From: Alienimonas californiensis | GTDB lineage: Bacteria; Planctomycetota; Planctomycetia; Planctomycetales; Planctomycetaceae | Reading direction: 5' to 3' | Length of the DNA: 64,000 nt | NCBI RefSeq assembly: GCF_007743815.1 | Contig: NZ_CP036265.1 | Coordinates: 1,976,323 to 2,040,322, forward strand | Shown here: in pieces, positions 29,863 to 33,834 of the stretch | Position numbering within the stretch: the stretch's first letter is position 1 | Layout: each line of letters opens with the position of its first letter | Notes under the pieces: model-generated | What the model was told of the DNA's origin: nothing | What the model saw: the letters and a program-made list of their open reading frames with translations, nothing else | Database searches by the model: none | Program-made: the position numbers and the translations under genes

Positions 29863-30954
29863 ATGACGCCGCCCGCCTCTCGCCCTACGCCCTCGTTCTA
29901 CGGCTCCGACGCCGCCTCCACGGTCGACGCGGCCTTGGAGGAGAACGCCCCGTCCGCCGACGCTCCCCTCGAAGCCCCCGCCGGGCAGCGGGAGGACTGC
30001 GTGCGACTACTCGCGGAACGGACCGACGCCTCCCCCGAGGACGCCGAAGCCCGCGTCGTCCAGGGCGCCTACGCCTACGACCAGGCCGCGAACCTCGCCC
30101 AAGGCGGGAAGATCGAGGGGCTCACCTTTAATTACGCGACCAAGCGGGTGATCTGCCGGACGCCGGGCGGCGTGACGGAGACGATCCGCCGGGCCCAGAC
30201 CGTCTGGGCGGCGGCCTACACGGAGGCGCAGGACGACGACAGTTGGGGGGACGGCCCGCTGGGCACGGCGGCGTCGTACGCGGAGAAGGGGGCCTCCGCG
30301 GTGGGCGGGGCGATCGGCTGGGTCTGGGGCGAGGCGAAGGGCCGCACGACGAAGCGGCTGGCCCGGGCGGCGTTCGGCAAGAACCCCGCCGTGCTGATGT
30401 TCGCCGCCGGGCCGAGCGTCTATCGGGCCCTCGTCACCGGCGAAACCTCCTGGCGGCAGGCGACGAAGGACCTGTTCGAGACCGGCTCCGGGATGGCCGG
30501 CGGCGCCGCGGGCGCCGCGGCGGGGGCGGCGGTGGGGGCGGCGGCGCTCTTTTGGATCCCGTTCGTCGGCCCGCCGGTCGGCGGGTTGATCGGCGGGGTG
30601 ACCGGCGGTCTCATCGGGGCCGGCTGGGGGGAACGCGGGGGGGAGATCGTCGCCGACAACTTCGCCCCGGACGACGCCGACGCCCTGCGTCCGCTGGCCC
30701 AGGACGAACTCGCCCGCCTCGCTTACGCCCACGCCCTGGTCCCCGCGGAGGTGGACCGTCTGAAGACCGCCTCCGAGGCCCTGACGACGGACAAACTGCT
30801 GCGGAACTGGTTCAAACTCTACGACCGCAAACTGGACGCCGCCGGCCGCGACCCCGCCGCGGCGGCCGTGCGGGAAGTGGCCCGCGAGGCGTACGCGCCG
30901 CTGTTGGACGAGATCGTCACCGCCCGCCCGACGGTGTCGCTGCCGGCCGGATGA
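29863..30954 (+). CDS. glycine-zipper membrane-associated protein
   Basis: A 363-residue protein with no signal peptide. The N-terminal half is soluble and acidic (QREDCVRLLAERTDASPEDAEARVVQ). The centre holds glycine-zipper segments: GTAASYAEKGASAVGGAIGW, then GSGMAGGAAGAAAGAAVGAA with ALFWIPFVGPPVGGLIGG and VTGGLIGAGWGERGGEIVAD. These can insert into membranes as a helical hairpin. The C-terminal 110 residues are helical. It has the look of glycine-zipper proteins that associate with inner membranes or vesicles, but the function is unknown. No overlapping neighbour suggests a partner. A -10-like TATTCT abuts the start. Confidence 0.6.
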   Translation: MTPPASRPTPSFYGSDAASTVDAALEENAPSADAPLEAPAGQREDCVRLLAERTDASPEDAEARVVQGAYAYDQAANLAQGGKIEGLTFNYATKRVICRTPGGVTETIRRAQTVWAAAYTEAQDDDSWGDGPLGTAASYAEKGASAVGGAIGWVWGEAKGRTTKRLARAAFGKNPAVLMFAAGPSVYRALVTGETSWRQATKDLFETGSGMAGGAAGAAAGAAVGAAALFWIPFVGPPVGGLIGGVTGGLIGAGWGERGGEIVADNFAPDDADALRPLAQDELARLAYAHALVPAEVDRLKTASEALTTDKLLRNWFKLYDRKLDAAGRDPAAAAVREVAREAYAPLLDEIVTARPTVSLPAG

Positions 30955-31645
30955 GGGGCGTTTCGCCGCCCGCGCAGCGGCGAACCCGGCCGGGACGCCT
31001 TCGCGTCGCGGTCGGGCCGCCGGGTCCCCTTTTCGTGGGAGGACCGGTCGCCTTGGGTTCTGCATCACGCTGGACTTCCGCCGCCCCGCCCGGTCGGAAG
31101 CCGGGCCCGGCCGGTGTGTGCCGGGGCTGGGAGGAGTGAGGTGGAATACGGGCTCACGGCCGACGGTTCATCAAGAACAGGTCATGAAGAACGGGGACCG
31201 GGCTTCGGGGCCGTGCCGTCCGCGGCGCCCGGGGCCGTGCGAGCCGGTCGGCTCGCCGACGCTCCCGGGTCGGCCGCGTGACGGGGTCGGCGTCCGTGCC
31301 TGCGGGCGGGGGGCGAATCGCGTCGATCGGCTGCGCGTGCCGACCGACGCGGGGGCGGGATTGCACGGCGTCCGTCACCAACGTCGGCCGCGTCGTCCCG
31401 CCCCGCGAGAAGCCGACGCCCGCCCGCATCCGATGCGGACGGAGCACGTCAGCCTCCTCACCCTATGGCGGACGGGGACCTATTTTTCCGGAAGCCCTTC
31501 CCAATAAACGACTTCCGGCGACGAACTGTGATGGAGTCGCCGGGGGCCATGCTCTCACGCCGGAGCGTCGCGCCAGCGAAACGCAGGCGGGTGAGCGTGC
31601 GAGCTACTCGGACACCGGTGCAGACGCGGGAACCGCTCTCCGTGC
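30955..31645. other. gene-poor region
   Basis: No convincing gene lies in these 691 bases. The left 480 bases are GC-rich; open frames there have compositions expected of random GC-rich DNA. The right end (from 31546) is occupied by the first 148-base repeat. A reverse frame at 31458-31649 starting GTG-AGC is a decayed relative of the 65-residue gene at 32212-32409 and is part of that repeat. Confidence 0.5.
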
Positions 31646-31693
31646 TCACCCCGACTGACTTCGCTCTGCTCCGTCAACCGGTGAGAGCATGCC
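31546..31693 (-). repeat. 148-base direct repeat, left copy (U1)
   Basis: Aligns in the same orientation with 32318-32466. Two sub-blocks are collinear and equally spaced: 31546-31599 with 32318-32371 (54 bases, about 72 percent identical by hand count) and 31638-31693 with 32411-32466 (56 bases, 44 matches). Each sub-block is an imperfect palindrome bounded by gcatgc/gctcacc-type ends. The last codons and the stop (31646) of the 189-residue gene lie inside this copy. Confidence 0.75.
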
Positions 31694-32215
31694 ACCCGGC
31701 CGCCATGATTGACCAAGTCGTCCTTCAGTCTTAATGTTGCACTTTCGGGATAACTCATTAAGTGCGGCAAGAGTAAACGGGATGCCATCGTACTCGGTGC
31801 CGGCGTCCGTGAAGTCGGCGTCGCAGACATTGCTGGATCGAGCGGCCTCTATGGCTGTGTGCAGGTATCGGACGGCTAAGTCGGACCTGCCAGCATGAAA
31901 TCTCACAAAAAATAGGTCGACATTAATAGTGACGGGTGCCGTCTTGATTTGCGACTCCAGCCGCCGGATCATCCTGGGTTGCCGCCTCATATAACTTGCA
32001 TCCGGGTCGATCGACCGAAGCTTGGTCACTGCGGCCAGAAGCTCTTTGCAGTTGCGTAGCCTGGCCGGCGTATTCTTCTGATGATTAATTCGTCGCTGAA
32101 GTTCCTCGATCTGTCGGTGAAGTGCCGCCTTTTGGATTGTATGCGGCCATGCGGGATCCCGCCGACGCATTTCTGCCCATGATTTCCCTGCCTCTTGGGA
32201 CTCTGCGTTGGTCAT
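31646..32215 (-). CDS. 189-residue protein in lower-GC cassette, function unknown
   Basis: A protein of 189 residues with an N-terminal coiled-coil-like stretch (AALHRQIEELQRRINHQKN), basic middle (YMRRQPRMIRRLESQIK) and a beta-like segment TAPVTINVDLFFVRFHAGRS. No domain was recognised. Base composition is clearly lower in GC than every neighbour, and codons such as ATA, TTA, AAA and AAT appear, pointing to recent transfer. ATG 32215 overlaps the stop of the upstream 65-residue gene by ATGA, so the two are translationally coupled. The final 15 residues (GMLSPVDGAERSQSG) are encoded by the repeat copy, which supplies the stop codon. Confidence 0.65.
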   Translation of the reverse strand: MTNAESQEAGKSWAEMRRRDPAWPHTIQKAALHRQIEELQRRINHQKNTPARLRNCKELLAAVTKLRSIDPDASYMRRQPRMIRRLESQIKTAPVTINVDLFFVRFHAGRSDLAVRYLHTAIEAARSSNVCDADFTDAGTEYDGIPFTLAALNELSRKCNIKTEGRLGQSWRPGGMLSPVDGAERSQSG

Positions 32216-32409
32216 TGGCCGGTAGGAATGATGATGTCGATCCGTAGGTTATCGGGCACCCAAAGCCGAACTGAGCGGTCAGCAGACGAACGGACGCTCC
32301 AGAGCCGACCGCTGGGTGCCATGCCCTTATCACATAGCATAGCGACAGCGGAACCGCGGCGGGTGAGCATGTGGGCGATGTGACGCTTTGAGAGCGGTTG
32401 GGGACTCAC
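32212..32409 (-). CDS. small 65-residue protein at head of cassette, function unknown
   Basis: The frame from GTG 32409 encodes SPQPLSKRHIAHMLTRRG, then AVAMLCDKGMAPSGRLWSVR and VRLWVPDNLRIDIIIPTGQ. An internal ATG (residue 14) is an alternative start. The right repeat copy supplies its first third. A decayed relative at 31458-31649 keeps LTRLRFAGATLRRESMAPGD in the same place, so this short gene was duplicated with the repeat. It overlaps the next gene by four bases. The two-gene coupling resembles toxin-antitoxin or cassette organisation, but no such family was recognised. Confidence 0.5.
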   Translation of the reverse strand: MSPQPLSKRHIAHMLTRRGSAVAMLCDKGMAPSGRLWSVRSSADRSVRLWVPDNLRIDIIIPTGQ

Positions 32410-32466
32410 CCTCCATGCTGACTCCGGCCGCCGTCACTCCGCTCCGTCCGCCGGTGAGGGCATGCC
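32318..32466 (-). repeat. 148-base direct repeat, right copy (U2)
   Basis: Partner of 31546-31693 and 772 bases away. It includes the GTG start region of the 65-residue gene. Sub-block 32411-32466 folds as an imperfect palindrome (catgctgactccggc against gccggtgagggcatg). Confidence 0.75.
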
Positions 32467-32515
32467 GCACAGCGGGGCGAGCAGACGCGGCGATCCACGC
32501 CGCCACGAAATGCAG

Positions 32516-32546
32516 AACGCCGAGGCCCCCGGGGGGCCTCGGCGTT
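32516..32546 (-). terminator. terminator of sat
   Basis: A 14-base perfect stem (arm aacgccgaggcccc) with a three-base loop, 32 bases beyond the stop of sat at 32578. The reverse-strand continuation has only a short T stretch. Confidence 0.75.
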
Positions 32547-32577: not shown

Positions 32578-33834
32578 CTACGCCTTCATCGCCTCGGCGA
32601 GGATCTTGCTGGTGCCGGGACGCATGATGCGCTCGTCGACCTGCTCGCCCTGCTGGAGGGTGGCGCGGACCTGTTTGCCGCTGATGAAGACCGGCTTTTC
32701 GTCCGGGTGGTTCTCCATCAGGTCGACCCGGCCCATGCTGTCGTAGAAGGCGGCGAAGCCGACCTTGATGGGCTGGATCTGCAGGTCGCCGTTCAGGTTC
32801 TCGAAGATCTCCTGGGCGTCGAAGTCGCCCCAAATGGCCGTGCCGTCGGCGAACGGGGCGTCGGCGTGTTTGCGGCCGATGACGATGTGCGTCAGGCCCA
32901 TGTTCTGGCGGTAGATGCCGTGCATCACCGCTTCCTTCGGGCCGCCGTAGAACATCTTGATGTCCAGGCCCAGCAGGATCACGCGGTCGGCGACCTCGCC
33001 GCCGACCTTCTCCCACAGCTCCGCGTCGCTGTCGCCCTCGCCGAGGCCCTTGTCGGCGATCAGCTGCTCGTAGGTCTGCATGCGGATCTCCGCGGAGACG
33101 TCGTCGCTCTTGGTCTCGCCGACCAGCGGGTTCAGCACGGCGCCGGCGTTCTTGCCCTCGCGGAGCAGCGTTTCCAGGCCGTAGACGAGCGCGTACTCGT
33201 GGGCCCGGTGCAGCGGGTTGCGGGTCTGGAAGCCGACGACGGCGTCCCAACCCTTCTCGGCGACGACCTTCCGCACTTCCTTCGGGGAGAGCACGTACTG
33301 GCCGAAGGAGGGGTTCTTCGGCTGGGGCAGGGCCCGCAGCGTGCCGCCGAACAGGTGGGTGGCGTTGGCGTCGCCCTCCATCACCATCTGGCCGCCGGGG
33401 TGGTCGGTGCGCTCGGTGCCGTAGACGGCCTTCACGTATTCGGCCTTGTCCCAGGGATAGACGTCCTCGACGTCCACCGTGGCGACGATCTGGCCGTCCG
33501 GGCCGGTCAGGGCGACGGTCTGACCGGCGAGGACCTTGGTGGACAGTTCCTCGGTCAGCGGGAAGGCGATCGGAATGGTCCAGGCGTAATCGAACCCGTT
33601 GTGGGTGATCACGCTGTCGGAGAGGACCTTGTCGTAGACGGCCTTGGTCATCGGCCCGGTCAGGGGCGAGAGCGTGCCGTCGGCGATCCGGTAGACGCTG
33701 GAGAGGTCCGCGGCGCTGACCGGCACCTGCGGGAGATTCGCCGCGGCCTTCTTGAAGTCCTCGACTTCGGCGGCGGGCACGGTGCGGTCGACGGGTTCGG
33801 CGAGGCCGCCGTGCGGGGGGATGAGGTCGGCCAT
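32578..33834 (-). CDS. sat: sulfate adenylyltransferase (ATP sulfurylase)
   Basis: A 418-residue monofunctional ATP sulfurylase, making adenosine 5'-phosphosulfate from ATP and sulfate. It is the first step of sulfate activation for assimilation or for sulfation. Catalytic motifs are intact: [10 protein letters not shown] at 203-212 and GRKHADAPF at 320-328, with YYDSMG-type [19 protein letters not shown] and metal-region [16 protein letters not shown]. The length matches the bacterial/archaeal Sat form without APS kinase domain. ATG 33834 begins [18 protein letters not shown]; these 18 codons recur at 56600-56653 as an isolated fragment. The polysaccharide cluster begins 374 bases upstream in the opposite direction. 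Confidence 0.96.

Follow-up and report, generated by a model that had tools for sequence, protein, structure and literature searches.

Descriptions of REP and REPIN elements usually treat them as selfish or regulatory repeats. REPINs, or BIMEs, are inverted doublets of REP units that are moved by a RAYT (PMC3116915, PMC3733652), and the end of the REP unit carries a GTAG or CGTC tag (PMC3733652). Mobile insertion cassettes are pairs of MITEs with passenger genes and no transposase, as exemplified by the qnrS2 element of Aeromonas pAC3 (PMC5444012).

The element described here, found in Alienimonas californiensis and Alienimonas chondri, appears to resemble a REPIN most. Like REPINs, it is dispersed, extragenic, and non-autonomous; its two palindromic units are inverted, form hairpins, and have conserved outer ends, and single units also occur alone. 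It differs in that its units are long (~57 bp), its copies number in the tens rather than the hundreds, it is strongly linked to single foreign genes, and no RAYT is clearly linked to it. The GTAG or CGTC tag is absent from the element ends, which have the conserved end GGGTGSC instead. A profile search returned 6 and 9 Y1_Tnp matches in the two genomes, and none of these 15 was tightly flanked by the element; a decayed copy lies 1 to 2.5 kb from one orthologous Y1_Tnp pair. Given the missing tag and the lack of a tightly linked RAYT, we do not claim that the element is a REPIN.

We favor, with moderate confidence, the explanation that this is a REPIN-type miniature mobile element whose copies mark, and probably create, small exchange sites for single low-GC genes. 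The two inverted palindromic units would fold into hairpins once single-stranded, and an enzyme acting in trans, our best guess being a Y1/RAYT-type transposase, would carry the element to intergenic sites. A horizontally acquired low-GC gene would come to sit against one copy, which usually lies immediately beyond the gene's 3' end, and gene and copy would be gained, lost, or replaced together. The simplest routes would be homologous recombination between dispersed copies or joint transposition. The dispersal, the two-hairpin architecture, the low-GC association in the two species, the presence/absence polymorphism, and the replacement of cargo at the window site are direct findings, whereas we infer both the moving enzyme and the joint movement of gene and element. 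Counting against this explanation, besides the missing tag and the lack of a tightly linked Y1_Tnp gene, are a copy number that is low for a REP family, the failure to establish a target-site duplication, several copies at the 5' side of their cargo, and compact relatives that have no low-GC association.

Element copies and cargo in the window

The window is a 64-kb stretch of the A. californiensis genome, which is a single 5.475-Mb contig. The left element copy (31540..31699, plus strand, 160 bp) was detected by alignment and with covariance model R1 (142.7 bits). Its two hairpin units, in inverted order, were located by alignment at 31546..31602 (plus strand, CATGCTCTCACGCC...GGCGGGTGAGCGTG) and 31638..31693 (plus strand, GTGCTCACCCCG...CCGGTGAGAGCATG). 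The right copy (32312..32472, plus strand, 125.6 bits with the covariance model) has decayed further than the left. The copies are direct and diverged, with 72% identity over 67 ungapped bp; a whole-genome search aligned them at 69% identity (E=7e-8). The initial annotation had placed two diverged copies of a 148-base repeat here, each with two imperfect palindromes. The copies are where it put them, and its palindromes are the two hairpin units, but boundaries drawn from comparison with other genomic copies give a full element of 157 to 161 bp, or about 160 bp rather than 148.

In each copy, two imperfect hairpins are arranged in inverted order; the outer ends are GGGTGCCATGC...GCATGGCACCC, with terminal inverted repeats (20 nt, 90%; I3). 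A 13-sequence alignment defined four boxes, A (GGGTGCCATGCTCTCACGCC), B (GGCGGGTGAGCATG), C (CATGCTCACCCCG), and D (CGGTGAGAGCATGGCACCC), and the outer and inner box set is conserved across the aligned copies. Pairing of A with B and of C with D yields two hairpins, whereas the alternative pairing of A with D and of B with C yields one long hairpin. The element had no match to any known RNA family in Rfam. Mobile insertion cassettes likewise have a passenger gene next to transposase-free miniature elements that bear terminal inverted repeats, but the copies in the window are direct rather than inverted and most Alienimonas cargo has one copy.

The 612-bp segment between the copies (31700..32311) has a GC content of 0.556 versus a window mean of 0.727, in agreement with the lower GC noted previously, and is the sole stretch of the 64-kb window in which GC measured over 600 bp falls below 0.58. 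It carries an orphan 189-aa open reading frame (31646..32215, minus strand) that, if copies mark exchange sites, would be a gene held between two of them. The stop of this frame lies inside the left copy, with its C-terminal ~18 codons being left element sequence. An overlapping ATGA joins it to a 65-aa open reading frame (32212..32409, minus strand, GTG start) whose start lies inside the right copy and whose N-terminal half is right element sequence. This layout had been described correctly. However, the left copy had also been said to retain a decayed version of the 65-residue gene, and what it contains is merely the repeat's own open frame. The element-derived string MLTRLR.AGA.LRRESMA recurs in unrelated copies, such as those at L010 and L045, and thus is no sign of a duplicated gene. 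Since the within-element frame recurs open in unrelated copies, the 65-aa open reading frame is doubtful and probably is not a real gene.

No match with a meaningful score was found for the 189-aa protein in Pfam, PHROGs, or PADLOC, nor was there a relative elsewhere in the A. californiensis genome, and peptide patterns found no relative in GTDB r220 contigs. Its single-sequence fold, in which the element-encoded tail is disordered, was poor (pLDDT 59) and therefore of no use as a structure-search query. A function for the protein may at most be inferred. The flanking genes code for a 363-aa glycine-zipper-like protein (29863..30954, plus strand) and an ATP sulfurylase identified with Pfam (32578..33834, minus strand). 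A 15-bp perfect hairpin (32516..32546) that is conserved in A. chondri lies between the right copy and the ATP sulfurylase gene.

Association of the element with low-GC genes

The covariance model detected the element at ~10 places in A. californiensis and ~28 in A. chondri, half copies included. Some copies are clustered, and many are solo copies between native genes. The initial annotation proposed that multiple copies, each with a different small gene, would support cassettes, and this pattern is found in the two Alienimonas genomes; the repeat is neither unique to the window nor always beside the same two genes. An ordinary tandem duplication of two genes was rejected given the dispersal of the repeats and their differing cargo.

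In A. californiensis, 5 of the 10 model-detected copies had a 500-bp flank below 0.58 GC, a threshold picked after the pattern was seen, versus 0.7% of random positions. That background covered 300 kb of the genome drawn as 20-kb samples, and therefore rare low-GC stretches were estimated from few events. The enrichment has a binomial p of about 4e-9 in a test that treats copies as independent; the left and right copies in the window flank one cargo, so the count for independent loci is 4 of 9. The A. californiensis HNH gene (L048) and a 338-aa gene (L014) lie beside degenerate copies that scored below the model cut-off and were outside the 10-copy test. A low-GC flank was also found for 7 of the 28 copies in A. 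chondri, where 0.4% of 500-bp windows are below 0.58 with masked bases removed. Flanks in draft contigs may be shortened, and gene calls around copies were made with a simple codon-position method. No report of this association was found in the open-access literature.

Where there is cargo, it is a single gene that differs from one locus to the next. Examples include an FRG-domain gene, which is beside the element in both species, genes for a 613-aa TIR-domain protein, an HNH protein, and a nucleotidyltransferase, and several orphans. Three of these matched candidate defense profiles in PADLOC (FRG, PDC-S15; TIR, PDC-M36A; HNH, PDC-M68A). One element per gene is usual, and the gene is often antiparallel to the element, with both gene orientations occurring. 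The element is past the 3' end of the cargo in most cases, with copies at the 5' side at L010, L136 (twice), L138, and L143. Direct copies bracket cargo in the window and at L137, as do direct half copies at L086 and L048. At the far end of single-copy cargoes no element and no conserved sequence were found.

The usual single element, often antiparallel and past the 3' end, as well as cargo between direct copies or half copies, would fit a true cassette system without attC, in which one low-GC gene and one element form a mobile unit that a tyrosine recombinase or Y1 transposase excises and inserts by recognizing the folded hairpins. The lack of conserved sequence at the cargo far end, the two gene orientations, and the many solo copies argue against such units. 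The position past 3' ends also favors a serious rival in which foreign genes are acquired in ordinary ways and the element inserts beside them later with no joint movement, owing either to tolerance of insertion at such sites or to a terminator role for the hairpins.

An exact pattern for the A-B hairpin also matched 36 additional contigs, which belong without exception to six other Planctomycetaceae metagenome-assembled genomes. The relatives on these non-Alienimonas contigs (L188-L234) are compact and very uniform two-hairpin doublets of ~105 bp, with the form GGGTGGCATGCTCTCACGCC-n4-GGCGGGTGAGCATG...CATGGCGACCCGGC-n4-GCCGTGACGCCATGCCACCC. In 14 of the 21 readable copies, boxes C and D have changed together, from CTC/GAG in Alienimonas to GCG/CGC or CCG/CGG. 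The changed boxes still pair with each other but have lost pairing with A, which supports two separate, inverted hairpins and thus the REPIN plan. The compact relatives in other genera have no low-GC association (Mann-Whitney p=0.36). So far, therefore, the link is either peculiar to Alienimonas or masked elsewhere by lower GC contrast.

Gene and element polymorphism between two Alienimonas species

Species were compared with the two Alienimonas genomes. At the window site, A. chondri retains both flanking genes (74% DNA identity for the glycine-zipper-like gene, 89% for the ATP sulfurylase gene) but has other cargo, which includes a DUF6036-like nucleotidyltransferase just under the Pfam cut-off. 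This cargo has half an element on its left and a decayed element on its right. The left element of A. chondri is nearer to copies elsewhere than to the left copy in the window, and these noisy similarities are suggestive only as evidence that elements may travel with their cargo. Different cargoes at one site, with left copies nearer to copies elsewhere than to one another, would be expected of cassettes. Later insertion of the element accounts poorly for a site at which each species has its own cargo and a copy that does not look orthologous to the other's.

At four sites, each species has either both gene and element or neither. Both are absent from A. chondri at L014, L010, and L011, and in the reverse case, L136, both are absent from A. 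californiensis. The L014 site measures 157 bp in A. chondri and 1.16 kb in A. californiensis. The empty sites are clean at L014 and L136, and other normal-GC genes are in place at L010 and L011; no resident repeat is left at any of the four. Joint presence or absence is what a mobile unit of gene plus element predicts, but it is also expected in the sister species if the element simply arrives second, and empty sites without a resident element are unfavorable to cassettes. At L044 a full solo element is present in A. chondri and absent from the orthologous A. californiensis site (window position ~21,000), so the site is polymorphic through gain or loss. The junctions at L044 and L136, themselves diverged between the species, show no visible target-site duplication.

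At three sites (L263, the L256 site, and the L044 site in the window) a different hairpin or terminator-like palindrome is present in the species that lacks the element, as would be anticipated if foreign genes and elements settle independently at such places. The FRG gene and its element at L009/L042 are common to both species, and the flank beyond the element differs, which weighs against independent settlement and would be expected if element copies act as rearrangement breakpoints. On balance, settlement without joint movement is a serious rival but a rather unlikely one. The L048 site offers a separate observation: the HNH gene of A. californiensis is between partial elements, and A. chondri has a different low-GC gene of 368 aa and no element (L264 2242-3348, C310), making L264 a variable-gene site without the repeat.

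That repeat-adjacent genes differ between the species indicates that the repeats mark where single genes come and go. The new class of cassette suggested initially holds up in that gene and repeat covary between species. It fares less well against the many solo copies, the REPIN-like inverted doublet, the four empty sites without a resident repeat, the compact relatives without a low-GC association, and the finding that no recombinase could be linked to the element. We regard a cassette system worked by a hairpin-recognizing enzyme as unlikely.

If the REPIN-type explanation is true, REPINs would gain a role in gene exchange, marking turnover sites for single foreign genes. Several of the genes at these sites resemble antiphage defense genes, and a low-GC gene against a copy would then be a route to unknown defense genes. 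A bolder but unlikely version is that Alienimonas has a gene-capture system, integron-like but unrelated to integrons, in which foreign genes, many of them for defense, would move with one double-hairpin element and so constitute a new REPIN-built class of gene cassettes. The two sequenced Alienimonas species already allow testing of the idea that REPINs are tied to gene turnover.

Integron relics and other repeats

A short foreign gene with a palindromic element after it, direct copies bracketing cargo, cargo that varies by site and species, and some copies in clusters are features shared with integron cassettes and their attC sites. A fixed gene orientation, with the element trailing one gene as in integrons, applies to the majority, with several exceptions. 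However, the element is dispersed on the chromosome with both gene orientations and has neither an attC core nor an integrase nearby. GTTRRRY was found in 0 of 13 aligned copies, confirming its earlier reported absence, and RYYYAAC was found in only 2, internally. The tyrosine recombinase family PF00589 had no match inside the window coordinates, in accord with the earlier failure to see an integrase there. An attC identity for the element was rejected because it lacks the core motifs.

Both genomes do contain integron relics. IntI C-terminus remnants of 59 to 70 residues (TIGR02249, E=3e-27) occur at L175 1420-1953 (A. californiensis ~2422900-2423420), L178 1411-1767 (A. chondri C314), and L140 1035-1190. 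In our reading, the A. chondri remnant is followed by short low-GC genes in an apparent array, with attC-like cores such as GTTAGAC between them. These relics might suggest that a lost integron used the repeats as atypical attC sites. This reading is mostly refuted and very improbable, given that the element lacks GTTRRRY, has a two-hairpin architecture different from that of true sites, and has no recombinase match in the window. The relic sites have GTTAGAC/GGATAAC-type cores, unlike the element, and the presence of genuine integron relics with different sites in the same genomes shows that the element is a different thing. An attC scan restricted to cores with perfect complementarity was insensitive and recovered a single site, located in an integron relic.

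A separate dispersed repeat of ~520 bp occupies window positions 30970-31500, with 9 strong places in A. californiensis and about 8 in A. chondri. It is about 50 to 130 bp from the palindromic element in four loci, and the IntI remnants of L175 and L178 are just downstream of its copies. Its sequence is strongly conserved, with a T-run near the end, and of the 121 pairs in its consensus fold, 18 show two-sided compensatory changes. It had no match in Rfam and is possibly a multicopy structured RNA.

A Y1/RAYT-like gene is present in both species (L145 426-1460, A. chondri C47; L140). Upstream of the A. chondri gene, another repeat, translated as NTFWGIRFASAPAT, is present in tandem and is probably a different REP family.
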